This document shows, one piece after another, positions 13,314 to 34,769 of a stretch of DNA of 34,816 nt; position 1 is the stretch's first letter; the number at the start of each line of letters is the position of its first letter. Below the pieces are notes generated by a model. It saw only the letters and a program-made list of their open reading frames with translations. It searched no databases and was not told the origin of the DNA. The position numbers and the translations under genes are program-made. Origin of the DNA: a bacterium (GTDB lineage Bacteria > Electryoneota > AABM5-125-24 > Hatepunaeales > Hatepunaeaceae); assembly GCA_021734165.1 (NCBI GenBank), contig JAIPJL010000022.1, positions 1 to 34,816 on the forward strand, written 5' to 3'.

Positions 13314-14273
13314 ATGAGTGAGGAAGATCTAATCAACCTTGTTGAGGGAAACGCTTCAGCCAACGATAACCAGTTTATGGATAATATTGTTATTGTTGGC
13401 GGTGGAACAATGGGACGAGGTATCACCATTGTTGCAGCTAAACGAGGAATAGAAGTTCTACTAATCGAGAAGAATGAAACATCATTGGCACAGTCTCTCG
13501 ATTTGATCAAGGAAAGCCTTGATAAAGAGATTTCACGTTGGTCTATGACAGAATCAGAGAAAAAAGCAATTCTGTCTCGTATCAAAGGAGTCGTAGAATT
13601 CAGCGAAATAACAAGTCAGCAGTTAATAATTGAAGCGCTGAATGAAGACTTTGAACTGAAAAAAGCTGTTTTTAAAGAACTTGATAAGTATTGTCAGGAT
13701 AAAGCAATTCTAATAACGAATACTTCGACATTATCCATAACAGAACTTGCATCCGTGACAGGACGACCAGACAAGGTCATTGGAATGCACTTTCTAAGCC
13801 CTGTCCAGAAAATCAAGCTTATTGAAGTAGTAAAAGGTTTAAATACTTCTGCCGATACATTCCAAAAAGTAATGGCTTTTGCGAAAAAACTGGAACGTAC
13901 ACCAATTGAGGTATTTGAATCTCCAGGTTATGTTACAACCAGAGTTTTTATCCCTTTGGTAAATGAAGCTATTCAGGTGCTGATGGAAGGCATTGCATCT
14001 GCGGAAGATATTGACACTGCAATCAGAATCGGTTACGAAATCCCAACTGGTCCACTTGCAATGGCTGATTCTATTGGTCTGGATCAAGTCCTTAAGTGGA
14101 TGGAAACATTGTTTCATGATCTTGGTGACGCTAAATATCGACCATGCCCATTACTTAGAATGCTTGTACGCGCAGGTCATCTGGGCGTCAAAACAAGTCA
14201 AGGCTTCTTCAAGTACAATGAGAATGGTGAGATTATTACCGGATCCGGACGCAATAGCAATAATATCAAGTAA
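13314..14273 (+). CDS. hbd: 3-hydroxyacyl-CoA (3-hydroxybutyryl-CoA) dehydrogenase
   Basis: 319 residues, longer than the roughly 280 usual for single-domain Hbd because of about 24 extra N-terminal residues. AAGGA at 13302-13306 supports this upstream ATG, although an in-frame ATG at 13377 would give the standard start. The enzyme oxidises 3-hydroxyacyl-CoA with NAD+, or reduces acetoacetyl-CoA. The Rossmann loop is VGGGTMGRG (28-36). Catalytic-type residues are Ser138 (NTSTLS), His159 (GMHFLSP) and Glu171. The Asn expected in PGFxxNR is Thr209 (PGYVTTR). The C-terminal domain is standard, with GPLAMADSIGLD and YRPCPLLRMLVRAGHLG. It is the last gene before a strong terminator. Confidence 0.88.
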   Translation: MSEEDLINLVEGNASANDNQFMDNIVIVGGGTMGRGITIVAAKRGIEVLLIEKNETSLAQSLDLIKESLDKEISRWSMTESEKKAILSRIKGVVEFSEITSQQLIIEALNEDFELKKAVFKELDKYCQDKAILITNTSTLSITELASVTGRPDKVIGMHFLSPVQKIKLIEVVKGLNTSADTFQKVMAFAKKLERTPIEVFESPGYVTTRVFIPLVNEAIQVLMEGIASAEDIDTAIRIGYEIPTGPLAMADSIGLDQVLKWMETLFHDLGDAKYRPCPLLRMLVRAGHLGVKTSQGFFKYNENGEIITGSGRNSNNIK

Positions 14274-14488: not shown

Positions 14489-15592
14489 GTGAATGAATTA
14501 AAAAAGAAAAATGAATCTAATATTTACTGTCTTTGTAAATATTTACTTCAACTGACTTTTCTTTTATTGCTTCTAATTTCAGCGGTTAGCTGCGAAATAA
14601 AAATAGGAGGAAAAAAGAAAAAAAAGAATGATAACACTGAAGCCGTTTCATCTCCTGTTGTTATTTGCCCTTCCTGGATAGGGGATATATCGAGGTTTCT
14701 CAGACTTGACGGTGTGCTTGAAGCAGACCGTGATGTCGCAATATTCTCAAAATCTATCGGCAGGGTGGTAAAACTTTCCATTGAAGAAGGCAGTGAAGTC
14801 TCTGCCGGTCAAGTTTTAGCTCAACTTGAAAACGATGAACAAGCCCTTGCACTTCAAAGAGCAAAAAATACTCTCGAAACAGATCGGGCAAGTCTTAAAA
14901 GAGCGGAAAAATTATATACTAAACAAGGCGTCTCAACAGATGACATTGATAAACTGAGATCAATAGTCAAAGATGACGAATTACGAGTACAACAGGCAGA
15001 GCTTGCATTATCGCAAACCAATATCACTGCGCCGTTCTCAGGTGTTATCTCTGAGAGATATATCAGCTTAGGAGACCGTATAGATATTTCAAGACCTTTG
15101 TTTAAACTCGTAGATAACAAAATACTCCATGTGGATACTTGGGTCTCAACTAATGACGCTTCTAAGTTAAAAGTTGGTCAATTTGTATCTTTATTCGAGA
15201 AATCTTATTCTGAAAAGAGATACCAGGCTTCACTTGTTAGAATTAGTCCAGTTGTTGATCCAGGATTCAATAAAATAAAGGCGACATTTGAGCTTTCAAA
15301 TATAAACAGAGAGCTTAAACCAGGTCAATTCATTGAATTGGAACTTACCCTTGAGACTCATCATGATGTACAACAAATACCCCGTAAAGCACTTGTCTAT
15401 GAAGCTGGTATTCCTATTGTTTTTCAATCTGTTGATAGTCTTGCCTTAAAGAAAAAAGTCGAGCTTGGTCTTGAAGCCGGTGATATTGTTGAGATAATCA
15501 AAGGTATCAGCCCTGGTGATAGCATTATAGTTGAAGGTCAGGCTACACTTCGCGACTCTGCGAAGATCATGATAGTTAATCCAACAAGATAG
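14489..15592 (+). CDS. RND efflux adaptor (periplasmic membrane-fusion) lipoprotein
   Basis: 367 residues with a GTG start and AAGG six bases upstream. A long N-terminal hydrophobic stretch ends at Cys35 (SAVSC), a plausible lipidation site, followed by a basic patch of five Lys. The mature protein has the HlyD/AcrA layout. A biotinyl-lipoyl-like half domain begins near 75 (GRVVKLSIEEGSEVSAGQ), then comes an alpha-helical hairpin (about 105-160), the second lipoyl half (NITAPFSGVIS), a beta-barrel (about 205-285) and a membrane-proximal domain. It would bridge the two RND permeases encoded just downstream to an outer-membrane channel not found in this window. The gene ends nine bases before the first permease start. 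Confidence 0.88.
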   Translation: MNELKKKNESNIYCLCKYLLQLTFLLLLLISAVSCEIKIGGKKKKKNDNTEAVSSPVVICPSWIGDISRFLRLDGVLEADRDVAIFSKSIGRVVKLSIEEGSEVSAGQVLAQLENDEQALALQRAKNTLETDRASLKRAEKLYTKQGVSTDDIDKLRSIVKDDELRVQQAELALSQTNITAPFSGVISERYISLGDRIDISRPLFKLVDNKILHVDTWVSTNDASKLKVGQFVSLFEKSYSEKRYQASLVRISPVVDPGFNKIKATFELSNINRELKPGQFIELELTLETHHDVQQIPRKALVYEAGIPIVFQSVDSLALKKKVELGLEAGDIVEIIKGISPGDSIIVEGQATLRDSAKIMIVNPTR

Positions 15593-15594
15593 GG

Positions 15595-15613
15595 AGGAGG
15601 TATGCTTCCTCCT
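15595..15613 (+). promoter_or_regulatory. Ribosome site paired with early codons of the first RND permease
   Basis: AGGAGG (15595-15600) is a perfect complement of CCTCCT (15608-15613), with the ATG (15602-15604) inside the seven-base loop. If formed in the mRNA, this GC-rich stem would hide the ribosome site and could tie translation of the permease to translation of the adaptor just upstream. Confidence 0.4.
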
Positions 15614-18600
15614 GAAATAAAAAAATCCCCATTCCATTTTTCGATAAGAAGACCTGTTTCGGTTACAATGATTGTAATTACTATGACGGTCTTCGGAATT
15701 CTATCCTACCGTTTGCTTTCAATCAATATGATGCCTGAAATCTCCTATCCATCGTTAACAGTTCGTACAGAATATCCGGGCGCTGCGCCTGAGGAGGTTG
15801 AGGATGCCGTTACACGTCCGATAGAACAATCACTTGGTGTTGTTCGTAATCTTGTCGAAATGTCATCTTCATCAAGAGCGGAAGTCAGCGATGTTCTATT
15901 TGAATTTGATTGGGATACGGATATGAATCGCGCAACACAGGATGTTCGCGAGAAATTAGATGTTACTTTTCTTGCTGAGGATGTAAAACCGCCTCTTATA
16001 CTTAGATATGATCCTTCATTAGATCCGATAATTCGCATTGGTTTAACTTCGGATTCGCTGAGTCTTCTTCAACTTAGAACAATATCAGATGAGATTGTAA
16101 AAAGAGAGTTAGAAAAACTATCCGGTGTTGCAGCAATTAAAGTAAAGGGTGGGGAAGAGGCTGAAATCTGGGTTTCAGTTGATCCGGTAAAGCTTGATCT
16201 TCTGAATCTCTCTATGGAGATGATCAATCGACGTCTTGCCTCTGAAAATGTAAATATTGCCGGCGGACGACTTCAGGAAGGTGAAACCGAATTTATTCTG
16301 AGAACGCTGAATGAATTCCGCAGTGTTAATGATATTTCCGATGTGGTCATCTACTCAGATAATAATAAAATTATAAGACTTGGTGATATAGCTATCGTAG
16401 AAAGGAGAGCCGGAGAGAAACAGACAATTGCAAGAGTAGGAGGCTTGGAAGCTGTAGAAATTGAGATATATAAAGAATCCGATGCAAATCCCATTATAGT
16501 ATCAGATTTGGTTAAGAAGCGGATTTTTGGTCTTGATGATAAAATGAAAAAAAAGCAAATCACTAAGTCGAAGGAAAAGAATAAGAAAGAAAATAGAAGA
16601 CGAGGACCTCAACCGCTTGCAGAAATGCTTACCGATCGTGTTCAAATTCATTTCTTATCTAATCAAGCTGAATTTATTGCACAATCAATAAATAACGTTA
16701 AGTCAGCCGCCTTGATTGGTGGAATACTTGCTGTAATTGTCCTGCTGTTTTTCCTTGGACGCTTGAAAGACACTCTTGTTGTAGCAGTTGTCATACCGGT
16801 TTCGTTGATCTGCGCTTTCGCTGCCATGCACCTTGCTGGTGTAAGTCTGAATATCATGTCACTGGGAGGTTTAGCGCTCGGCGTCGGTATGATGGTTGAT
16901 AATGCGATTGTAGTTATAGAATCGATACATCGACGGCGTGAAGAAGGTGAAGAGGCAGTGATTTCTGCTGTAAAGGGCGCTAAAATTGTTGGAGGCGCAG
17001 TAACCGCTTCAACACTGACAACAGTAGTTGTATTTTTCCCAATAGTTTTTGTTAGTGGTATTGCCGGACAAGTTTTTGGTGATATGGCTTTAACGGTTAT
17101 AATTGCGCTAAGTGTATCAGTAATAATGGCTTTGTTTTTTATACCAATGCTGTTAACGCTTAGAATTAACACTAATGATGAAGGTGAAGATTGGCATTCT
17201 CCTAAATCAACGCCTGTTTCAGTATGGAATGATTTCATATATGATTATCAGAGATGGAAGAGTTCATCCGGAATAAAGCGTATCTTGTCATTTTTGTTCT
17301 ACATCTCTTATCTATTAATCAAACTGATTCTAAGCTTCATCTTGAATTTGCTGTTTTGGTCGATTTACTATGAATTGAAATTGGTTCGCTGGCTTATTTA
17401 TAAGGCTGCCTCACCTGGAATTAGCAGTAAATTTTCCTTTATTGCTATGATAGGCACATCTTTCAGAAATGGTATTTCTCATTTAACAGATCTTTATATC
17501 AGTGTTCTGAGAAGACTCTTGCATCGACCGGGCGTAGTTATCTTTTGTGTAATTATTCTCTGCTTTGTATCATATTTTATCTTGCTTCCAAAATTAGGCG
17601 GCGAGTTAATACCTAATGTAAGTCAAGGAATGTTTGACATAGAATTGACACTACCTGTAGGAACATCGCTTGAGAAAACAGCGGATATAATTCATCCTAT
17701 TGAAATGGAATTAACGCAAATATCAGGCGTCATAAAGATTTCCAGCAGAATTGGCGGCGAGCTTATGTCTGCGGAGCAATCAACCCGTGGACCAAATAAA
17801 GCTGTAATTTCGGTTTTAATGGAACAGGGAGGTAATACTGAGCAGCGAGAAGCTTTTATTGTACAACAGGTTCGCAAAATCGTATCTGTCATTCCTTCTC
17901 TTGAAATACTGATAACACATCCAACACTTTTCTCGTTTAAACAGCCTTTTGAAATAATACTCAAAGGTAATAATCTTGATAAACTACGAAAACTTGGCAT
18001 TGAAGTAGAAAACCGTTTATCAAAGCTTCCAATGCTTGCAGATGTTAAATCATCTGTGCGAACCGGTCATCCTGAAGTTATAATAAGATTTGATCGCGAT
18101 AAACTGGCGCGTCTTGGTTTCAGCGCTCGTGTAATTGCTGAAAGGGTACAATCTGAAATACTTGGCAATGTACCAACACGCTTTAAAGAGCACGAAAGAC
18201 GAATAGATATCAGAATTAAAATTGCTGAAGAAAAGAGAGAAAGTATAGATGAATTACGCAGGTTGGTCATTAATCCTGATCAGAAAATACCTGTCACGCT
18301 TTCTGATATTGCTTCCTTGGAACTGGTCGAAGGTCCAGCCGAAATAACCAGGGTTGGTGGTGTTAGATCTGCAATTGTAACTGCTGATGTAATAGAATCA
18401 GACCTTAAAACCGCTGATGCTGTTATAGGGGAATCACTTGGTGAAATGAATCTTATCGAAGGTTATGATTATGTGATCTCCGGACAAAAACGCGAAATGG
18501 AAGAGTCACTCGCTAGTTTGAAATTTGCATTTCTCCTTGCAATATTCCTCGTTTATGTAGTAATGGCGTCGCAGTTTGAATCATTTCGTCATCCATTTCT

Positions 18601-19027
18601 TATCCTGTTGACAATACCGCTTGCTGTTGCCTGTATTTTGCCTGTTTTATGGAGCTTGCACATCTCTCTCTCGGTAATGGTATTCCTGGGATTGATTGTA
18701 CTTGCTGGAATCGTAGTGAATAACTCTATTGTTTTGGTTGATTATACCAATCAATTAGTTCAGGATGGTAAACCGGTTTATGAGGCTGTATTAGAATCCG
18801 CAGCAGCTCGTATCCGTCCAATATTGATGACTTCACTGACAACAATACTTGCATTATTGCCAATGGCGCTGGGTGTTGGCGAGGGAGTTGAGATCCGTCG
18901 TCCAATGGCAATAACAGTTATTTTTGGACTCAGCTTTGCGACCTTGATCACTCTGATCATTATCCCTTTGTTTTATAATATTATCAGTAAGAACAAAAGT
19001 AAAAAGGATCTCAGTGAAACCGTGTAA
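15602..19027 (+). CDS. RND efflux transporter permease, first subunit (AcrB/MdtB type) with extra hydrophobic block
   Basis: 1141 residues, about 100 longer than AcrB. The inner-membrane pump uses the proton gradient to drive export. It opens with FSIRRPVSVTMI and TM1, has two large periplasmic loops, and ends with the TM10-12 block containing VNNSIVLVDYTN. In TM4, VDNAIVV keeps one relay aspartate (Asp433), with Asn434 where AcrB has a second Asp. There are two oddities. A very basic insertion of alternating Lys lies at about 313-337, in the first periplasmic part. A long segment between TM6 and TM7 (about 530-640) holds a strongly hydrophobic stretch at 560-592 that could form one or two extra membrane helices. 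A second RND permease follows 74 bp later. Confidence 0.88.
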   Translation: MLPPEIKKSPFHFSIRRPVSVTMIVITMTVFGILSYRLLSINMMPEISYPSLTVRTEYPGAAPEEVEDAVTRPIEQSLGVVRNLVEMSSSSRAEVSDVLFEFDWDTDMNRATQDVREKLDVTFLAEDVKPPLILRYDPSLDPIIRIGLTSDSLSLLQLRTISDEIVKRELEKLSGVAAIKVKGGEEAEIWVSVDPVKLDLLNLSMEMINRRLASENVNIAGGRLQEGETEFILRTLNEFRSVNDISDVVIYSDNNKIIRLGDIAIVERRAGEKQTIARVGGLEAVEIEIYKESDANPIIVSDLVKKRIFGLDDKMKKKQITKSKEKNKKENRRRGPQPLAEMLTDRVQIHFLSNQAEFIAQSINNVKSAALIGGILAVIVLLFFLGRLKDTLVVAVVIPVSLICAFAAMHLAGVSLNIMSLGGLALGVGMMVDNAIVVIESIHRRREEGEEAVISAVKGAKIVGGAVTASTLTTVVVFFPIVFVSGIAGQVFGDMALTVIIALSVSVIMALFFIPMLLTLRINTNDEGEDWHSPKSTPVSVWNDFIYDYQRWKSSSGIKRILSFLFYISYLLIKLILSFILNLLFWSIYYELKLVRWLIYKAASPGISSKFSFIAMIGTSFRNGISHLTDLYISVLRRLLHRPGVVIFCVIILCFVSYFILLPKLGGELIPNVSQGMFDIELTLPVGTSLEKTADIIHPIEMELTQISGVIKISSRIGGELMSAEQSTRGPNKAVISVLMEQGGNTEQREAFIVQQVRKIVSVIPSLEILITHPTLFSFKQPFEIILKGNNLDKLRKLGIEVENRLSKLPMLADVKSSVRTGHPEVIIRFDRDKLARLGFSARVIAERVQSEILGNVPTRFKEHERRIDIRIKIAEEKRESIDELRRLVINPDQKIPVTLSDIASLELVEGPAEITRVGGVRSAIVTADVIESDLKTADAVIGESLGEMNLIEGYDYVISGQKREMEESLASLKFAFLLAIFLVYVVMASQFESFRHPFLILLTIPLAVACILPVLWSLHISLSVMVFLGLIVLAGIVVNNSIVLVDYTNQLVQDGKPVYEAVLESAAARIRPILMTSLTTILALLPMALGVGEGVEIRRPMAITVIFGLSFATLITLIIIPLFYNIISKNKSKKDLSETV

Positions 19028-19101
19028 AGTCTCATTTTATTTACGTGTGGCACAATCAGCTAATGAAAAGGTAAAGTGTGAATTTGTGATTTACAAAAAC
19101 A

Positions 19102-22100
19102 ATGTCTGAATTATCTAATAAATCCACAAACTTAGGCAAAGGTGGTCTTCCGGGTTTTGCTATCAGACGACCGGTCACAATGATTATGTTATTTCTATCG
19201 CTAATCGTTGTAGGTATAGTCGCTTGGCGCGGTATTCACCTGGAACTTTTCCCTGAAGGTTTTAATCCACCATTCATGCATGTCTGGCTCGCATATCCTA
19301 ATTCCAGCCCAATTGAAAATCAGGAGCGTGTTGGTATTCCTACTGAGGAATACCTTTGGACTGTAAAGGGAATTAAGACAATTCGCACTGAATCAAGAGA
19401 AACCGGATGTTCTATAAGACTGGAGTTTAATCAGTCTGTAGATATGGATGTAGCCTATCAGGAAGTACGTGACAGACTGGAGAGAGTAAAACCTGAACTG
19501 CCTGAAGACCTGAGATATATTTATATATGGCGATATTCCGAATCTGAGGAGCCTATAACCTATTTCAGTATATCAATTACAGGCAATTATGAAGATCCAT
19601 ACAGGCTTATCAATGAAAGCGTTGTTAAAAGATTAGAACGGCTGGATGGCGTCGCTAAAATTGAGATTTGGGGCGATAAAACTAAACAAATTAGAATCGA
19701 ATTTATCCTTGAAAGACTGAAGGCATGCAATATTGATGTTGGTGTTCTAATCCGTGAATTGCAAAGCGCTGATTTTACTCTTGCATGTGGAAGCATCGAT
19801 GATGGTGAGAAAAAACTTATTATGAGAGCTGATGGCAGAATTAAAAATATTGATGAATTACGTAGATTGCCTATCGGTACCGCAAATCTACATCTCGAAG
19901 ACGTTGCTGATATTACCTATTCAACGCCGAGAAGAAATTGGATTCAGCGTATTGGCAGAGGTGAGGCTGTTGAAATCACTGTTTTTAAAACATCCGATGC
20001 TAATACTGTCGAGCTTAGCGAAAATGTAAAAAATCTGATCAATGAGATAGCAGATGATCCACAGATGGCTGGTTTGCAATTTGACATTCTTTTTGATCAG
20101 GGTGAATATATTACATCGTCTCTTGATAACCTAAAGCAGGCAGGATACTGGGGTGGATTATTTGCTGTTATTGTATTATTTCTTTTCCTGCGACGTCTTA
20201 GAATGACACTCTTTATAACAATGGCGATACCTATCTCATTGCTCGTAACAATTACATGCCTTTATTTCATGGATTGGTCGCTGAACATTATTACCTTATC
20301 AGGTTTGATGCTGTGTGTGGGGCTTGTAGTTGATAATGCTATTGTGGTAGTAGAAAGTATTCACACCAATAGTCAATATGGAATGAGTAGGAAACAGGCT
20401 GCTATCTATGGCGCTCATGAAGTAGGATTGGCTATTACTCTGGCAACAATGACCACTATGGTAGTATTCCTTCCGATTATGTTTATGAGTGGTGACAGGA
20501 TGACTTCTTTCTTTCTTATCAGAATCGGGATGCCTGTAATAATAGCTTTGCTGGCAAGTTTAATGACAGCTTTACTTTTTATACCGTTGGCAGTCAATCG
20601 TTTTGCCATGTCAGGCGCAGCATCTGAACCTCGAATTATATCCAGAGCATCGGAATACATTGAGAATATGGTGCGCAAGCTTTTGAAAAATCGCGCGCAC
20701 ACACTGTTGATAATGCTGCTATTACTTTCATCAATAGCTATTCCAATGAAACAGGTAATCTCAACTGATCAGGAAAACGGTAACATCAATGACGTGTATT
20801 TCTCATTTAGATTTCCTGCCTATTATAGTATTGATGCTGTTGATTCAACGATGCAGTACTATGAAAATCAAATATATGAAAGATCTGAAAAGTACGGAAT
20901 TAAGACAATTGTAACAGGACTAAGACGAGGATATGGCAGGCTGCGGATATTTCTGCAGGATGAAAAAGAGAGAATGTGGCTGATCGCAGGGTTAAGAAGG
21001 ATAGCGCGCAAAATCGGTATTCTTAAAACGGAAAGGTTGACCCACAAAGAGATTGTTGAAGACCTAAAAGGATGGTTAAAACCACCGCCGGACGTTGACA
21101 TGCGCGCCGACTGGAGGCGGGGAAGTGAAGATGAATCAGTGTATGTAACCATTTATGGTGATGATACTATAAAATTGCTGGATATTGCAAATAGTGTCAA
21201 ACGCAGACTGGAGATGATACCGGAAGCGTTGACTGTCGATCTTGATCTTGAATCAACTTCTGATGAAGTATGGATTCGTTTTGATCGAGAAAAAACCTCA
21301 AGATTAAAGGTTGATCCATTAATGGCCGCTACAGGGCTTATTAGCTTAGTCAGAGGAATCAGCTTGCCTGATGTGCGAATTAACGGTCACGAAATTGAAG
21401 CCAGCGCAGAACTGCGGGAAGAAGACCGTGAAACTTTAGCGCAGGTATTAAATCTTCCGGTCACTGGAGAGAAGGGGAGAGTCATTTGTCTTGATGATGT
21501 TGCCGGAGTTAATTACGGACGCGGTTTAGGCTCAATTACGAGAGAGAACAGACGCACAAGAATACGTATTGAAATCAGTACTACTGAAGACGATCTTGAA
21601 AAACTATCCGATGCAATCAGCGCAAGCCTTTCCGATGTTGCGCTTCCACCAGGTTACGAATGGAATAAAGGCGAACGGTTTCAGTCAATTGAAGATGCTG
21701 CGCGTGAACGAAACCAATCCTGGATGTTGGCGGTAGTCTTTGTGTTTCTAATACTTGGAGCGTTGTTTGAATCATTTCTGCTGCCATGGTGTGTTATTGT
21801 TACCGTACCTTTTTCATTTTTCGGAGTTTATTGGTTTCTATTTTTAACAGGAACACAATTCGGATTAATGGCAGGTATTGGTGTGATAATACTAATTGGT
21901 GTAATTGTAAACAACGCTATCGTTCTCGTTGACAGAGTAAACAGGCTTCGTATCCAGGGAATGGAACGTAATGAAGCCCTTGCGCTTGCGTCAAAACAGC
22001 GTTTCAGACCGATAGCCATGACTGCTATGACAACAATTATGGGACTGGTTCCAATGGCAGTAGGTGATGCAAATTTGATAGGAATCCCTTATGCACCGAT

Positions 22101-22242
22101 GGGAAGAGCTATAATAGGGGGGATGTTGGCTGCAACTGCTACAACGCCTATTATCGTCCCACTTGCGTATAGTTTTATAGACGATTTAAGTAAATGGGTG
22201 AAAAGCTACGCAATGTCAATAGATATAGCACATAGAGGTTGA
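19102..22242 (+). CDS. RND efflux transporter permease, second subunit
   Basis: 1046 residues, the standard AcrB length, and clearly different from the preceding permease. It begins with GFAIRRPVTMIM and TM1. TM4 carries VVDNAIVVVES (Asp411, Asn412), and the C-terminal half has VNNAIVLVDRVN followed by MTAMTTIMGLVPMA. Two unlike permeases with one adaptor recall MdtABC, where MdtB and MdtC form a mixed trimer, so a hetero-oligomeric pump is a reasonable inference. No outer-membrane factor or local regulator is visible. No good ribosome site precedes the ATG at 19102, which may mean low or coupled translation. Substrate unknown. Confidence 0.87.
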   Translation: MSELSNKSTNLGKGGLPGFAIRRPVTMIMLFLSLIVVGIVAWRGIHLELFPEGFNPPFMHVWLAYPNSSPIENQERVGIPTEEYLWTVKGIKTIRTESRETGCSIRLEFNQSVDMDVAYQEVRDRLERVKPELPEDLRYIYIWRYSESEEPITYFSISITGNYEDPYRLINESVVKRLERLDGVAKIEIWGDKTKQIRIEFILERLKACNIDVGVLIRELQSADFTLACGSIDDGEKKLIMRADGRIKNIDELRRLPIGTANLHLEDVADITYSTPRRNWIQRIGRGEAVEITVFKTSDANTVELSENVKNLINEIADDPQMAGLQFDILFDQGEYITSSLDNLKQAGYWGGLFAVIVLFLFLRRLRMTLFITMAIPISLLVTITCLYFMDWSLNIITLSGLMLCVGLVVDNAIVVVESIHTNSQYGMSRKQAAIYGAHEVGLAITLATMTTMVVFLPIMFMSGDRMTSFFLIRIGMPVIIALLASLMTALLFIPLAVNRFAMSGAASEPRIISRASEYIENMVRKLLKNRAHTLLIMLLLLSSIAIPMKQVISTDQENGNINDVYFSFRFPAYYSIDAVDSTMQYYENQIYERSEKYGIKTIVTGLRRGYGRLRIFLQDEKERMWLIAGLRRIARKIGILKTERLTHKEIVEDLKGWLKPPPDVDMRADWRRGSEDESVYVTIYGDDTIKLLDIANSVKRRLEMIPEALTVDLDLESTSDEVWIRFDREKTSRLKVDPLMAATGLISLVRGISLPDVRINGHEIEASAELREEDRETLAQVLNLPVTGEKGRVICLDDVAGVNYGRGLGSITRENRRTRIRIEISTTEDDLEKLSDAISASLSDVALPPGYEWNKGERFQSIEDAARERNQSWMLAVVFVFLILGALFESFLLPWCVIVTVPFSFFGVYWFLFLTGTQFGLMAGIGVIILIGVIVNNAIVLVDRVNRLRIQGMERNEALALASKQRFRPIAMTAMTTIMGLVPMAVGDANLIGIPYAPMGRAIIGGMLAATATTPIIVPLAYSFIDDLSKWVKSYAMSIDIAHRG

Positions 22243-29218: not shown

Positions 29219-29722
29219 CTAAAACTTCATACTTAAATCCCAAACTCCAATAAAACCCTGGCAGGCAAGTGTTACTACTATTCCGGCTACGCAAATCCCT
29301 GCTGCAATACAGATTAATGCACGCCAGAACTTTATCCCAAAAATATGAGCAGCAACCGAGCCCGTCCAGGCTCCTGTTATCGGTAATGGAATAGCCACGA
29401 ACATAATTAGACCTAATGCTCTGTATTTTTCAATAACTCTTCCTCTTCTCTGAGTTCTTGAGTATAACCATTGAAAGAACAATTCAAAAAACTCCCACCT
29501 GCTTAGAATATGCTCAGCTTTCCTGAGGAATTTAAGGATAATTGGCACAGGAAGAAAATTACCGATGATACTCCATAAATAAGCCTGATACCAAGGCATA
29601 TCAAGCGCGAATGTTGCCCATGGTATAGAGCCGCGCAACTCAGTTACAGGCAGCATTGCCAATAAAAGCGTTACGGCTTCCTTTGGCAATCCTATAAAAA
29701 GTCCGGCAATTTGTTCAGTCAT
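29219..29722 (-). CDS. COG2426 / small multidrug export family membrane protein
   Basis: 167 residues with about four to five membrane segments. The family signature PVTELRGSIPWA near the N-terminus and the AIPLPITGAWTGS re-entrant-like turn (about 112-124) match the Sm_multidrug_ex family (COG2426). That family's name comes from early reports and its true activity is not established; it also resembles DedA/VTT-like membrane proteins in its paired Pro-Gly turns. The start codon overlaps the end of pcm by four bases (ATGA), so the two are translationally coupled. It is the last gene of the minus-strand operon. Confidence 0.75.
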   Translation of the reverse strand: MTEQIAGLFIGLPKEAVTLLLAMLPVTELRGSIPWATFALDMPWYQAYLWSIIGNFLPVPIILKFLRKAEHILSRWEFFELFFQWLYSRTQRRGRVIEKYRALGLIMFVAIPLPITGAWTGSVAAHIFGIKFWRALICIAAGICVAGIVVTLACQGFIGVWDLSMKF

Positions 29723-30360
29723 TTACTCCAACCCTCTTCACCTATTAACGGTACGAATATACAACGACTTCTATTCTCAACTTTCATTTCTCCATTTTCC
29801 GTTTTTATTACGAGTTTTAATTCCTGCGAATATCTTGAACCAACCGGAACTGCCATCATCCCCCCTATAGTAAGTTGATTAAATAATCTGAGTGGTATTT
29901 CAGGTGCTGCTGCTGTTACAATAATCCTGTTAAAAGGCGCTTTTTCATCCCATCCAATTGTACCGTCACAAACCTTAAAAAATATATTATTATAATTCAG
30001 CTTCTTAAGTACATTCTTTGCATCATTCTGTAAAGATGATATACGTTCAATTGTGTAAACTTCTTTGCCTAATTCTGCAAGTATTGCAGTCTGATAACCG
30101 GAACCTGTGCCTATCTCTAATATTTTTTCATTTCCTTCAAGCGCGAGTGTTTCCGTCATTATTGCAACCATGAGAGGTTGAGATATAGTTTGTCCGCATC
30201 CTATAACTAGCGGTCGGTCATCATACGCAACATCAATATCACTTTTATTAACAAAGAGATGTCGCTCAACCTTACTCATCGCAGATAACACACGCTCGTC
30301 AACAATTCCACGCTGTTTGAGCTGTTGCTTAACCATAATTTTAAGTCTCTCATCAATCAT
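29719..30360 (-). CDS. pcm: Protein-L-isoaspartate O-methyltransferase
   Basis: 213 residues, the usual size. It methylates isoaspartyl residues in damaged proteins with S-adenosylmethionine, starting their repair. The AdoMet loop is LEIGTGSGYQTA (81-92). The substrate motif IGCGQTISQP (53-62) has Cys55 where the E. coli protein has Gln. The N-terminal helices (MVKQQLKQRGIVDERVL) and the VTAAAPEIP strand are typical. It begins one base after the glycosyltransferase stop and overlaps the next gene by four bases. The tie to a TRAP operon has no obvious functional logic. Confidence 0.92.
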   Translation of the reverse strand: MIDERLKIMVKQQLKQRGIVDERVLSAMSKVERHLFVNKSDIDVAYDDRPLVIGCGQTISQPLMVAIMTETLALEGNEKILEIGTGSGYQTAILAELGKEVYTIERISSLQNDAKNVLKKLNYNNIFFKVCDGTIGWDEKAPFNRIIVTAAAPEIPLRLFNQLTIGGMMAVPVGSRYSQELKLVIKTENGEMKVENRSRCIFVPLIGEEGWSK

Positions 30361-30361
30361 A

Positions 30362-31054
30362 TTATATTTTCTTTCTTTCTACTACAAACTTAACAACCAC
30401 TTTAAGAAATCTTACAATATCTCTAAAACGTTTGATCGAACTGGGCGCTCCGCTGTAATGCGTCGGAATATCGATCCAGGCGATCTTTGCTCCCGAATGC
30501 AACATCTTTAATAGACATTCCGTTTCAAATTCATAGCCGTTTGAATCACAGTTTATCTTTGTAAGTTTGTTGCATCGAATCAATCTGTAGCCGCATTGAC
30601 TGTCACGGATTTCCTTTCCGTTTAAAAGAGTTAGAATTTTACTGGTGGACCAATTAGAAAACCTTCTATCCCAAGGCATATTACTATTCTTACGGTTTCT
30701 TGCGCCGATTACAAGATCATAATCCGTTTTTTCGGCAAACCTGATAAATTGTGGTAATAATTTCGGATCGTGCTGTAAATCACCATCAATTGTGATAATC
30801 CAGTCATAGCCTTGTTTTAGAAAGTAATCAAATCCGGTCATTAATGCAGCGCCTTTACCAAGATTATTTTCGTGTGAGATCAATCCAACTTCATAAGTAC
30901 TCGCAATCTCTGCCGTATTATCAATAGATCCATCGTTAACAACAAGAATTTTCCCCGCTTTGAAATACTTAAATGCTGCATCAAGCAATACAGGCAAATA
31001 CTTCTCCACATTATAGGCTGGTATTAACAGTCCAATGCTATTTTTATTATCCAT
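30362..31054 (-). CDS. Family 2 glycosyltransferase (dolichyl-phosphate mannosyltransferase-like)
   Basis: 230 residues from the ATG at 31054, which overlaps the dctM stop by one base (TGATG). A TTG one codon earlier is possible, but the ribosome-site spacing favours ATG. The GT-A fold is clear: LLIPAYNVEKYL (9-20), NDGS (40-43), the metal-binding Asp90-Gly-Asp92 (TIDGDLQHDP) and DSQCGYRL, the QxxRW-equivalent region of polyprenyl-phosphate sugar transferases. No membrane helices follow, so it is probably a soluble or membrane-associated enzyme moving a sugar from a nucleotide donor to a lipid carrier or protein. Substrate unknown. Confidence 0.88.
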   Translation of the reverse strand: MDNKNSIGLLIPAYNVEKYLPVLLDAAFKYFKAGKILVVNDGSIDNTAEIASTYEVGLISHENNLGKGAALMTGFDYFLKQGYDWIITIDGDLQHDPKLLPQFIRFAEKTDYDLVIGARNRKNSNMPWDRRFSNWSTSKILTLLNGKEIRDSQCGYRLIRCNKLTKINCDSNGYEFETECLLKMLHSGAKIAWIDIPTHYSGAPSSIKRFRDIVRFLKVVVKFVVERKKI

Positions 31055-32322
31055 CAATGACCTAATAATTGAACCGGATAAAGAGTTAAAAACGGAATAT
31101 ATGTAATAAGAGCCAGAATTATCAATTGGATTAAGAGAAATGGCAACGCCGCTCTGTATAATGATATAATAGGCTTCTGAAACCTGACACTTGCAATGAA
31201 CAGGTTAAGTCCTACAGGTGGCGTACAATAACCAATTTCAAGATTAGCAAGGAATATTATACCCAAATGGATAGGATCAATGCCATAATCTAATGCTAAT
31301 GGTAATATCAAGGGTACGACCACAACTAATGCTGAAAAAACGTCCATCAAGCAGCCCACGATCAGGAGAAAAACGTTAAGTAAAAGCAGGAAACCTATTT
31401 TATTTGTTACTAAAGATTTAATCCACTCTAATATTATCATAGGAATTTCTGCATATACGAGGAAATTCGTCAAAGCTAATGCTGATCCAAGTATCAATAG
31501 AATGCTGCCTATTAGGACACAGCTTTCTTTCAGTACTTGAGGCAGTTTCCGAAGCGGGTGAATATCACCTATAATAAAACATTCGATTATTATCAGATAG
31601 GATGCTGTGATAACTGCCGCTTCGCTGGCGGTAAAGAAACCTCCGTAAATACCTCCAATCACAATTATCGGCAGGGGAATTTCCCAGATAGCAGCTTTAA
31701 TTGCAGGCAGCAGTCTTATCTTTTCATGCTTATCGTTTTGACTGACAACTTTTTCGCTTTTAATGCTGTACAACGCCATACCTGTCACAAGCAGCAGCCC
31801 GGGAATGAATCCGCCAATGAACAGGTTATTGATGGATGTTTCTGCGACGATTCCATAGAGTATTATTGGCAGACTTGGCGCAAATAGCAATCCAATACTG
31901 CCTGATGCTGTCAGCAAACCAAGCGAGAACTTCTCCGGATATCCATATTTCAGAAGCGCAGGTAAAAGAAGTCCTCCCATCGCTATAATCGTTATACCTG
32001 AAGCGCCCGTAAAAGATGTAAAAACAGCCATCACAATTAATGCTACAATCGCCAACCCACCCGGAAGTCTGCCTATAATAGCATTTGCCAGGTTAACAAG
32101 TCTTTCCGGAGCATTGCTTTTCGCTAAAATGAAACCGGCAAGTGTGAAAAGTGGAATCGCTATAAGCGTTGGGTTGCTTGTTAAGCGTAAGAGTTCACCA
32201 AAGTAAATTACAGGATTTAAATCTGCGGATATATAGCCTATAATGGCAAGAACTGAAAGCACCAGAAAAAGCGGCAGCCCTGCCAAAGCGGTGAGAGCGA
32301 GGATAATATAGAGAATGCCCAA
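31054..32322 (-). CDS. dctM: TRAP transporter large permease (DctM)
   Basis: 422 residues with about 12 membrane segments, the normal size for the large TRAP permease. Typical features are the GLPLFLVLSVLAIIGY opening, IPLFTLAGFILAKS (about 56-69), an FTGASGITIIAMGGLLLPAL segment, and near the C-terminus a YCTPPVGLNLF loop (NLEIGYCTPPVGLN). It imports a solute bound by DctP, driven by a sodium gradient in characterised homologs. It starts five bases after the dctQ stop and is followed without a gap by the glycosyltransferase gene. Confidence 0.93.
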   Translation of the reverse strand: MGILYIILALTALAGLPLFLVLSVLAIIGYISADLNPVIYFGELLRLTSNPTLIAIPLFTLAGFILAKSNAPERLVNLANAIIGRLPGGLAIVALIVMAVFTSFTGASGITIIAMGGLLLPALLKYGYPEKFSLGLLTASGSIGLLFAPSLPIILYGIVAETSINNLFIGGFIPGLLLVTGMALYSIKSEKVVSQNDKHEKIRLLPAIKAAIWEIPLPIIVIGGIYGGFFTASEAAVITASYLIIIECFIIGDIHPLRKLPQVLKESCVLIGSILLILGSALALTNFLVYAEIPMIILEWIKSLVTNKIGFLLLLNVFLLIVGCLMDVFSALVVVVPLILPLALDYGIDPIHLGIIFLANLEIGYCTPPVGLNLFIASVRFQKPIISLYRAALPFLLIQLIILALITYIPFLTLYPVQLLGH

Positions 32323-32327
32323 AGCCT

Positions 32328-32828
32328 TCAGTTTCCTTCTAACTGTTCAGGCATTTCTTTCACAGGCACGAGGAAATACAGCGCCATCAACCAGAAACTC
32401 ATCGGGATGATAAGTTCCACAATCCAGATTGGTGTAGTCATACCAAAGAATACACTATCAAGCATTACATCAGCGCTCTTCTCGCTGGTAATAAAACTAA
32501 ATGACAAATACCCAAGTAACCCAGAACAGGTTGCTGCAATGATTGATATTAAACGTTGAATGATAAATTTCGTTTTACCACTCAGGTAATGCTCAATTAC
32601 GTCAATTCGTATATGACGGTTTTCAGCAGCAGCGAGGACTCCACCAAGCAACGCCAGCCATAGGAGTAATTGCCTGAGTTGAATATCTGCCCACGGGATG
32701 CCTTGTGATAGCGTCCAGCGCAATAATAATTGAAGCAATGCCAGCACGACCATCCATGCAAGAAGAAATACAACAACCCAGCCGACAGTCTTTTTAATTA
32801 TTGAGGAAAGTTTATATACAAAATTCAT
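32328..32828 (-). CDS. dctQ: TRAP transporter small permease (DctQ)
   Basis: 166 residues with four predicted membrane helices. The family signature is present: WADIQLRQLLLWLALLGG (about 48-65) followed by RHIRIDVIE (about 73-81), matching the conserved 'H-i-x-v-d' after TM2. It partners with DctM to form the transport complex. Its start overlaps the dctP stop by one base (TAATG), so the two proteins are translationally coupled. Confidence 0.9.
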   Translation of the reverse strand: MNFVYKLSSIIKKTVGWVVVFLLAWMVVLALLQLLLRWTLSQGIPWADIQLRQLLLWLALLGGVLAAAENRHIRIDVIEHYLSGKTKFIIQRLISIIAATCSGLLGYLSFSFITSEKSADVMLDSVFFGMTTPIWIVELIIPMSFWLMALYFLVPVKEMPEQLEGN

Positions 32829-33856
32829 TATTTATGAGCATTTTTTATTCGATAGTCTTTTAGAATTAACAGTAATTGTTCAAGTAATTCACGAGGATAA
32901 AGATCATCAGCCAGCCTATTATAAACACCAATGCTCACTTTACGCATGGCTTTTCTTTGTTCATCGGTTGATATTGTTACTTCAAGCCCTTCCTGAGTCA
33001 AATATTGATAAGCCTCATTATTGTCTTTACGGGATTTCAGAAGCAATTGACGTAAATATTTACTTGATATTTCAAGTAAAAAAGTTTGATGATCATAATC
33101 AAGTTTATCAAATGTTTTCCGATCTATCAGTACTGCGCCGATGGCATTAGTAAATGGTATATCAGAAATATACTTAACTTTTGTAAACCATTGCATTACC
33201 AATGCAGCAAGCGGTGAACAGTAAACTGTATTGATCAATCCGGTTTGTAACGACATGTGAACATCGGTAATGGACAGTTGAATTGGCGTCTTATCAAGCT
33301 CTTTAAAAAAAGCATCAGCCAGTGGATCACCTGCCCATGACCAGACTTTCTGTTTTTTCAAATCATTAGGTTTTAAGACAGGTTGATTTGAAAGAAAATA
33401 AACCCATCCAACATCCGCCCAACCGAGTAAAACAAAACCTCGGTCAACAAGTTTCTTTTCAAAATATGGCGTCAACTCAGAAACGGCATAATCTATTTCT
33501 GCTTCATTATTAAATATGTATGGCAGCTCAAGGATACGCAATTCGGGCAGGATTTCACCTAGACCATTGCCTGTAAAACCCGCTCCATTTAGTTGTCCTA
33601 ATCGCATCTTTCTTATTACATCCTTTTCATCACCCATTGACATATTAGGGTAGAACTTAAAAGCAACCTCTCCCCCACTCTGTTCATTAAGCTCCTTATC
33701 AATTGTATGCATGGTTTCCATCCAGGCTGAGCCTTCAGGCGCTATAGTTGCAAATCTGATAATTGTTTTTCCATAGCAGATGTTTGAAAATATCAGAAGA
33801 TATAGTAATGCGTTTGTGAAGGTCAGTATGTAAATATGTTTAAAGTATCGTTTCAA
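32828..33856 (-). CDS. dctP: TRAP transporter periplasmic substrate-binding protein (DctP/TatP type)
   Basis: 342 residues with a signal peptide (hydrophobic 9-25, cleavage near CYG-KT). The mature protein has the DctP fold: IRFATIAPEGSAW near the start, a GEVAFKFYPNMSMGDEKD strand and helix, and TDVHMSLQTGLINTVY in the second lobe. Most DctP proteins hold the ligand carboxylate with an Arg in a KxR motif (for example SiaP). Here the aligned site reads QKVWSW, with Trp172 in place of that Arg. Together with the TatT-like lipoprotein gene 25 bp upstream, this points to the TatP branch (Treponema pallidum Tp0957), thought to handle a non-standard, perhaps hydrophobic, ligand. Substrate unknown. 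Confidence 0.88.
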   Translation of the reverse strand: MKRYFKHIYILTFTNALLYLLIFSNICYGKTIIRFATIAPEGSAWMETMHTIDKELNEQSGGEVAFKFYPNMSMGDEKDVIRKMRLGQLNGAGFTGNGLGEILPELRILELPYIFNNEAEIDYAVSELTPYFEKKLVDRGFVLLGWADVGWVYFLSNQPVLKPNDLKKQKVWSWAGDPLADAFFKELDKTPIQLSITDVHMSLQTGLINTVYCSPLAALVMQWFTKVKYISDIPFTNAIGAVLIDRKTFDKLDYDHQTFLLEISSKYLRQLLLKSRKDNNEAYQYLTQEGLEVTISTDEQRKAMRKVSIGVYNRLADDLYPRELLEQLLLILKDYRIKNAHK

Positions 33857-33881: not shown

Positions 33882-34769
33882 TTAGAATAAATCTTCAGAT
33901 TGCTTTAACAATTCTTGAGCTTTCAATGAAGCAATCCTGTTCAGCAATCTAAGATCTTCCGGTTCATTTTCAGCGCCACTAACAATTTGTTTCAATTGCT
34001 CCTTAAATAATCCCTGATCTAATACTTGAACAGCATATGTTTTAGCATATAATAACCTACCCCAGAGAAATTTATCACCATCGGCTTTCAAAGCGCGCTG
34101 AAAATATTCGTTTGATTTCGCAGAACTCCCTCCCAACATTGGTGGTAACGAAGCATAATAAGTACCGAAATACCAAAGAGGCGCTGAATAGTAAAAATGC
34201 GGATCAGTATTTAGAACCCACTGCATCAGGTTTACCGCCCTAGGTGATTCCATCATTGCCTTTGGTGAACTTTTCTCAAGGTTTATCCGCGACGCCCAGG
34301 CAGCCGCTGTCCAATATGCAGCCGGAATATCGTTATCTTCAAGTTCTTCTATCAATAAATTAAATTCATCAAGCTTTAATCTTTCATCCATAAATTCAGA
34401 AATACTTAAAGATAAAGCTCTCATTCCAAATTTTTGACCGCGTTCGTATAGCGCTCTTGCTCTATTTTGATCTGTGTCTTCAACAAACATCATCGTATAA
34501 CCCGTAAATCCCTGCGCAGCTAACTCCAATAATTCACGATCATTAGGACGAGTAACTATCATACCTTCAAGCAGTTTAAGCTCAGACTCTAAACCTGTTT
34601 TAGCAAGTTCAATATCTGTTTCAGATAACAATGATTGAATCGCTCCTTCCACAACAGGCTTGGCAGCCCAGATTACCATCCGCTCTCTGAATGAGCAACC
34701 GGTAAAGAGGTTTAACAAAACTGCAAACGTAAATCCTAATATACTTAATCTTATTATCTTATTATTCAT
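33882..34769 (-). CDS. TatT-type lipoprotein associated with a TRAP transporter (TPR-like)
   Basis: 295 residues. A lipoprotein signal ends at Cys25 (LFTGC). The mature part is alpha-helical with TPR-like helix pairs (ERGQKFGMRALSLS and YFQRALKADGDKFLWGRLLYAK are typical pieces) and a conserved-looking PLWYFGTYYASLPPMLGG turn. The pattern and the gene order tatT-dctP-dctQ-dctM match the TRAP-associated TatT family, described first in Treponema pallidum (Tp0956), where TatT is a pore-bearing trimer that binds the substrate-binding protein. Here it would probably sit in the periplasm, anchored by lipid, and deliver or hold ligand for DctP. No clear ribosome site precedes the ATG at 34769. It is the first gene of the minus-strand operon in view. 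Confidence 0.85.
   Translation of the reverse strand: MNNKIIRLSILGFTFAVLLNLFTGCSFRERMVIWAAKPVVEGAIQSLLSETDIELAKTGLESELKLLEGMIVTRPNDRELLELAAQGFTGYTMMFVEDTDQNRARALYERGQKFGMRALSLSISEFMDERLKLDEFNLLIEELEDNDIPAAYWTAAAWASRINLEKSSPKAMMESPRAVNLMQWVLNTDPHFYYSAPLWYFGTYYASLPPMLGGSSAKSNEYFQRALKADGDKFLWGRLLYAKTYAVQVLDQGLFKEQLKQIVSGAENEPEDLRLLNRIASLKAQELLKQSEDLF

Follow-up and report, generated by a model that had tools for sequence, protein, structure and literature searches.

In the TRAP binding protein SiaP the carboxylate of the ligand is bound by Arg147 and Arg127, and a network of Arg127, Glu186 and His209 has been proposed to shift upon closure (PMC4089482). A minority of DctP proteins are described as having lost the carboxylate-binding Arg; Fischer 2015 reported its replacement in 199 of 6142 proteins, with Phe as the commonest substitute (PMC4646407). 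Among the published cases is Tp0957 of Treponema pallidum, which has Ala at this position, a pocket described as hydrophobic and a ligand considered likely to be hydrophobic (PMC4646407, PMC5812351). Tp0957 belongs to the TPAT system TatT-TatP(T)-TatQM (Tp0956, Tp0957), and according to a review the pore of Tp0956 was seen to contain a linear hydrophobic molecule (PMC5812351). The Bst sterol system of Methylococcus capsulatus contains another member of the T-component superfamily, BstC, which binds C-4 methyl sterols; the same study suggests that other T-components may function in lipid trafficking (PMC10942540). The ligand of the TatT-linked TRAP class is still called unknown in these accounts (PMC4646407, PMC10942540).

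Here we describe a TatT-linked TRAP locus from a bacterium of the Electryoneota (assembly GCA_021734165.1, contig JAIPJL010000022.1, positions 1 to 34,816 of the forward strand); this whole stretch of 34,816 nucleotides is referred to below as the window. The source genome (3.4 Mb in 169 contigs, 86% complete) yielded a single DctP-family match, that of the window.

The tatT-dctPQM gene row and its products

The locus lies at the end of the contig and comprises seven genes on the minus strand:

33882..34769 (-), TatT, the T-component of a TPAT/TatT-TRAP system, 295 aa, with lipobox LFTGC and Cys25 (PF16811, E 3.2e-63)
32828..33856 (-), DctP/TatP substrate-binding protein, 342 aa, TTG start (PF03480, E 6.4e-40; NF037995 TRAP_S1, 288.6 bits)
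32328..32828 (-), DctQ, small membrane subunit (PF04290, E 4.2e-19); its start overlaps the dctP stop by 1 base
31054..32322 (-), DctM, large membrane subunit (PF06808, E 1.6e-82; TIGR00786, 344 bits)
30362-31057 (-), GT2 glycosyltransferase behind dctM, with a 4-base overlap with the dctM stop
29719-30360 (-), protein-L-isoaspartate methyltransferase, in the same gene row
29219-29722 (-), small putative multidrug-export protein (PF06695), last in the same gene row

The order is tatT-dctP-dctQ-dctM-GT2-isoaspartate methyltransferase-export gene, with gaps of 25, -1, 5, -4, 1 and -4 bases, and we infer that the row forms one transcription unit because these gaps are so small. The tatT start codon is 47 bases from the contig end, and the other side of tatT is outside the contig.

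The TatT-like partner proposed for this DctP in an earlier note, made from the sequence alone, is real, based on the PF16811 match and on the AlphaFold2 model of the protein (pLDDT 96.3), which matches Tp0956 (4di3_A) at Z 30.5 over 254 residues at 1.9 A. A structure titled 'bacterial TPAT family transporter' (8g52_A) follows at Z 30.1, while 7t1s_B, titled as a bacterial sterol transporter, reaches Z 19.8; the latter match is just above background because the next helical-repeat proteins reach Z 18.6 and below. By its motif, LFTGC, TatT is a putative periplasmic lipoprotein, and of 60 aligned TatT proteins, that of the window among them, 58 have Cys in the Cys25 column. The window TatT and BstC share a superfamily but differ in their partners, which for BstC are BstA and the phosphonate-binding-type BstB (PF12974) (PMC10942540) and for the window TatT, on the side that the contig covers, are DctP, DctQ and DctM.

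The window DctP, which reads LKKQKVWSWAGDPL, scored well above the NCBIfam TRAP_S1 cut-off of 50 bits. Its AlphaFold2 model (mean pLDDT 96.7, pTM 0.90) has the predicted fold of a complete TRAP binding protein, with Z values of 33-36 (top 35.9) over the 50 entries listed by VIA-align re-ranking. The list consists of ordinary TRAP binding proteins and does not include Tp0957, although Foldseek placed the Tp0957 structure 3u65 at rank 9, with TM 0.77/0.83. The fold and PF03480 are common to the window DctP and the classical binding proteins SiaP, DctP and TeaA. It is not of the TAXI type, as only PF03480 matched at E <=0.001 and Q and M are separate.

The closest described counterpart is the T. 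pallidum system, whose T-component has the same predicted fold as the window TatT and is described as having its pore open toward the cleft of the P protein in the complex of the two. The two systems differ in that T. pallidum has a dctQM homologue (PMC5812351) whereas dctQ and dctM are separate genes beside dctP in the window. They also differ in that Tp0957 is described as a lipoprotein (PMC5812351), whereas no lipobox was seen by eye in the window DctP. A pattern search found a lipobox in 3 of 95 DctP frames of the non-Arg class defined below (one gene, that of G219, being counted twice).

Residues at the carboxylate-relay positions

The earlier note had pointed to a segment QKVWSW in DctP with Trp in place of the carboxylate-binding Arg. 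We confirmed this, and located the equivalents of the other SiaP relay residues as follows:

33341..33343 (-), Trp172, at the SiaP Arg147 position (HMMER alignment, 95-relative profile)
33335..33337 (-), Trp174, kept in the non-Arg branch in 85 of 94 proteins (alignment of sampled DctP)
33401..33403 (-), Val152, at the SiaP Arg127 position (alignment)
33221..33223 (-), Tyr212, at the SiaP Glu186 position (alignment)
33152..33154 (-), Phe235, at the SiaP His209 (hinge) position (alignment)

The segment had been placed at 33336-33347, a span that actually extends from the final base of the K170 codon into the W174 codon, of which it includes two bases. In the HMMER alignments Trp172 pairs with the R of KIR in 4ng7, 4x04 and 4xfe. 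In Tp0957 it pairs with Ala; as the comparison proposed in the note has now shown, that protein likewise lacks the Arg but does not share the Trp. A profile of 95 relatives again put Trp172 at the Arg column against its five best matches (4p47, 4xfe, 4ng7, 4n8y and 4x04). In the AlphaFold2 model Trp172 is on strand 171-174, which fits the placing of the carboxylate-binding Arg on 'beta-strand 6' (PMC5812351).

The spacings of the relay residues are equal in the two proteins, 127-147 and 186-209 in SiaP (20 and 23) corresponding to 152-172 and 212-235 in the window DctP. Unlike the classical proteins, then, the window DctP has the equivalents of Arg147, Arg127, Glu186 and His209 all replaced and has a tatT gene adjoining it; by alignment it has neither the Arg147 equivalent nor the Arg127-Glu186-His209 network of the carboxylate-binding, SiaP-like class. 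The possibility that another Arg occupies the same pocket had been raised against the note's reading, but the mapped carboxylate-relay positions hold Val, Trp, Tyr and Phe. All four are uncharged, in a sequence mapping limited to these ligand and hinge positions. Tp0957 is alike in this respect, having no Arg and uncharged residues at the other three relay positions: its residues at the four positions are L, A, L and I, as read from an alignment to a TatT-linked Phe-type relative (E 5e-31) that spans most of the length of Tp0957. Based on the shared TatT gene and uncharged relay, we assign the window system to the known TPAT (TatT-TRAP) class, in its commonest sampled form, and the window DctP is a new member of this class.

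The absence of the network that SiaP is proposed to use for closure (PMC4089482) would also be expected if the DctP cleft no longer captured a periplasmic solute, with DctP mainly docking TatT or the system working outward. This we consider highly improbable, since the protein has the fold of a complete TRAP binding protein and has DctQ and DctM encoded beside it, and since G75, P112, G140, G150, L203 and G290, the residues most conserved across both the Arg and non-Arg classes, are kept at at least 90% of 95 rows.

The non-Arg branch and its association with TatT

The survey covered 291 genomes, of which 79 were over the cut-off for the TatT family and 108 for TRAP_S1. We fetched 140 stretches, which, with the window counted, contain 148 DctP and 69 TatT frames. 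As one gene of G219 was present twice (L096 holding a truncated copy of the L142 gene), there were 147 distinct DctP proteins, from 94 genomes. The Arg147 column of these proteins held W in 79, R in 52, F in 9, Y and C in 2 each, and H, P and G in 1 each; as DctP matches were listed down to 175 bits, the counts for the Arg type are minimum values, and there may be non-Arg genes beyond those counted. The recurrence of Trp in 79 of the 147 distinct genes excludes chance or sequencing error as its source. All seven named relatives of the window protein, including Nitrospirae, Planctomycetota and KSB1 records, have Trp at this column, and five of their seven stretches have a TatT match.

In trees the non-Arg proteins fall together on the same side of one old split. 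FastTree, run on the 148 frames (the G219 gene twice) with the Arg147 column removed, separated them from 53 others (R 52, G 1) with support of 100, and the same split (SH-aLRT 100) was recovered by IQ-TREE under a mixture model from 77 thinned rows without the four relay columns. A single origin of the non-Arg form would be the simplest account. The non-Arg class was sampled from 47 family codes, the window row being counted with its own family, and seems to include Treponema Tp0957, which was placed by match ranking rather than in the tree. On the non-Arg side, 89 of 94 proteins had neither charge nor His at any relay position and the remaining 5 had a single such residue, while on the Arg side charged residues or His occupied all four positions in 41 of 53 proteins, three in 10, two in 1 and none in 1. 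Since charge and His are nearly absent from all four positions across the non-Arg side, the relay appears to have been lost as a unit. The Asn187 position follows a similar division, with N in 11 of 94 non-Arg proteins versus 43 of 53 on the Arg side.

Loss of the Arg is tightly tied to TatT. Of the 94 sampled non-Arg genes, 65 had a tatT gene no more than 4 kb away on their own strand, versus 3 of 53 on the Arg side. Expressed by residue, the 68 of 147 DctP proteins with such a neighbor had W in 55, F in 8, R in 3, and Y and H in 1 each, and the 79 without had R in 49, W in 24, C in 2, and F, G, P and Y in 1 each. The pattern held when the set was thinned to <50% identity, leaving 98 proteins: those with TatT in the stretch had W in 32, F in 7, R in 2, and H and Y in 1 each, and those without had R in 34, W in 16, and one each of Y, F, P, C and G. 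By genome, an aromatic or His form was found in 67 of 69 with a strong TatT match versus 1 of 25 without (Fisher p 5e-19, a value not to be taken literally because the genomes share ancestry). The strong category omits weak or partial matches over the cut-off (G054, G077, G138, G187, G222, G276) as well as matches under it (G013, G022, G027, G072); only G077 of these has a sampled DctP, an Arg type, and counting it gives 67 of 70. Of the genomes that had no strong TatT match, the one with an aromatic or His form is G003, whose contig stops 93 bases upstream of dctP. Six genomes had both classes among their fetched DctP proteins; in five of them (G251, G091, G120, G281 and G095) only the stretch with the non-Arg gene contained TatT, and in G086 TatT was by both genes. 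As the non-Arg proteins form one side of the tree, the TatT association is that of a subfamily and not of many independent gains.

Judged from these sequences, Trp is not special to the window protein; within our survey no other residue is as common in the TatT-linked class. That Trp is commonest here, versus Phe in Fischer 2015, may reflect our sampling by lineage and by TatT. We found no description of Trp as the majority form of TatT-linked DctP proteins, or of the joint four-residue loss, in the portions of the literature that our search covered (Deka 2012 and Brautigam 2012 lay outside it), and we make no claim of priority for either.

Several loci have other arrangements. Three Arg-type DctP genes adjoin a tatT gene (L099 of G086, L100 of G081 and L101 of G226), and their proteins fall on the Arg side of the tree. 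One locus (L055, G051:C6) has one tatT, then two tandem Trp-type dctP genes, then one dctQ and one dctM, a layout suggesting that two binding proteins might share a single transporter. Seven TatT-linked Phe-type loci (L036, L038, L044, L047, L048, L050 and L104) have a DctM match and no separate DctQ match; these may either encode QM as a fused subunit, as is described for T. pallidum, or have a DctQ so divergent that the search missed it.

Candidate ligands

The ligand predicted in the earlier note was one without a carboxylate, or a hydrophobic one. The loss of the Arg, the presence of TatT and the fact that Arg loss tracks TatT across phyla are consistent with this prediction, but its two halves are not equivalent, as a fatty acid is both carboxylated and hydrophobic. 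By analogy with Tp0956, Tp0957 and BstC we infer a hydrophobic ligand, and the window DctP probably carries greasy molecules rather than small acids. Our preferred reading, which we hold to be reasonably probable, is a TPAT-type TRAP importer in which TatT takes up a hydrophobic or amphipathic ligand, the relay-less DctP receives it and DctQM imports it. In such a system TatT, a lipoprotein formed as a ring of helices, would take the molecule in the periplasm and would presumably pass it to DctP. The cleft of DctP, in which Trp, Val, Tyr and Phe jointly take the place of Arg147, Arg127, Glu186 and His209 of the clamp and hinge relay, would hold it, and DctQM would move it inward, presumably driven by an ion gradient, with both the direction and the driving ion expected from the class. 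We count against this reading the 29 of 94 non-Arg genes that have no tatT within 4 kb, the three Arg-type genes beside tatT, the tracing of the TatT association to one old event, the gene neighborhood and the branch-specific basic residues treated below, and the structural re-ranking, whose 50 listed entries did not include Tp0957.

The strongest rival is that the ligand is an acid-bearing amphiphile, such as a fatty acid, whose carboxylate is held by a relocated basic residue specific to the branch. The basic residues of the window DctP that are peculiar to the branch are R82, K83, R85, R276 and R336. On the non-Arg side R82 is found in 81 of 94 proteins, R276 in 81 and R336 in 74, versus 1, 9 and 3 of 53 on the Arg side, and K83 is in 72 of 79 Trp-type proteins; R82, R276 and R336 could serve a carboxylate. 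The source genome also encodes a FadL-family outer-membrane protein (PF03349, E 5.0e-41), which equally speaks for the preferred reading, and has five acyl-CoA dehydrogenase matches. In the AlphaFold2 model, however, R82-R85 belong to helix 77-85, R276 to the long helix 254-288 and R336 to the final helix, and none of them is among the mapped SiaP ligand positions. We consider a relocated carboxylate grip unlikely, though worth keeping in view. R82 was also considered as a plain replacement of SiaP Glu67, an idea that was dropped because Glu67, which we presume from counting on from the conserved GDE motif to lie near window T95, falls nearer that residue.

Acidic residues offer a different possibility. 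One of them is a one-residue insertion of the non-Arg branch:

33326..33328 (-), Asp177 (D in 74 and E in 11 of 94 non-Arg proteins; a gap in 53 of 53 on the Arg side)

The other is at position 77, where 80 of 94 non-Arg proteins have E and 13 have D. The pocket could accordingly be imagined as an aromatic cage that holds an amine-bearing ligand by cation-pi contacts, with Asp177 or Glu77 balancing the charge. The uncharged, often aromatic residues that replace Arg, Glu and His and the acids kept at 177 and 77 would suit such a cage, as would the binding of ethanolamine by Csal_0678, a TRAP protein reported to have no Arg (PMC4646407). However, BstC, the T-component homologue with a tested ligand, binds sterols (PMC10942540), and acids at position 77 are also common on the Arg side (E 29 and D 8 of 53). 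Asp177 itself directly precedes helix 178-185 in the AlphaFold2 model, the expected site of a cap. Asp-Pro before a helix is an ordinary helix cap, and Asp177 may be only that. We regard the amine cage as doubtful, and as less likely than the fatty acid gripped by a relocated residue.

Gene neighbors were tried as a clue to the ligand and rejected. The GT2 gene is behind dctM in six of nine genomes of the window's own family (the TRAP stretches of G002, G004 and G008 are cut by contig ends), and outside this family a GT2 relative occurred in only one of the fetched stretches (L062), on the other strand. The other neighbor clusters, obtained with overlapping frames removed, were small and mixed (Thy1, TPR, ABC ATPase, pentapeptide, AMP-binding and 3-hydroxyacyl-CoA dehydrogenase), and fatty-acid genes were rare. 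A 3-hydroxyacyl-CoA dehydrogenase relative was found in 3 of 86 non-Arg stretches versus 0 of 53; one of these three is the window, which is far longer and whose match is weak (49 bits). An AMP-binding enzyme was found in 3 of 86 versus 1 of 53. The comparison of these 86 and 53 stretches thus gave no lipid signal in the gene neighborhood. Elsewhere in the window are a 3-hydroxyacyl-CoA dehydrogenase N-domain protein (13314-14273, plus strand; PF02737, E 1.6e-56), some 15 kb away from where the TRAP row ends, and a membrane-fusion protein together with two tandem AcrB-type RND pump genes of 1141 and 1046 aa (14489-22242, plus strand).

Returning to the TPAT-type importer, we tentatively propose, as something possible rather than probable, that the Trp/Phe branch consists of widespread secondary lipid importers of single origin, in which the relay was replaced once as a unit by a pocket of aromatic and aliphatic residues and TatT was recruited as a lipid chaperone. 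The absence of charge at SiaP positions 127, 147, 186 and 209 provides a sequence mark of the TatT-linked class, and our survey suggests that 'C4-dicarboxylate' labels on proteins with this mark are probably wrong. The Arg-type DctP proteins beside TatT in G081, G226 and G086 are the best place to ask whether a TatT may serve a carboxylate-binding TRAP system, and the survey as a whole points to proteins of non-pathogens with which the ligand question can be tested.
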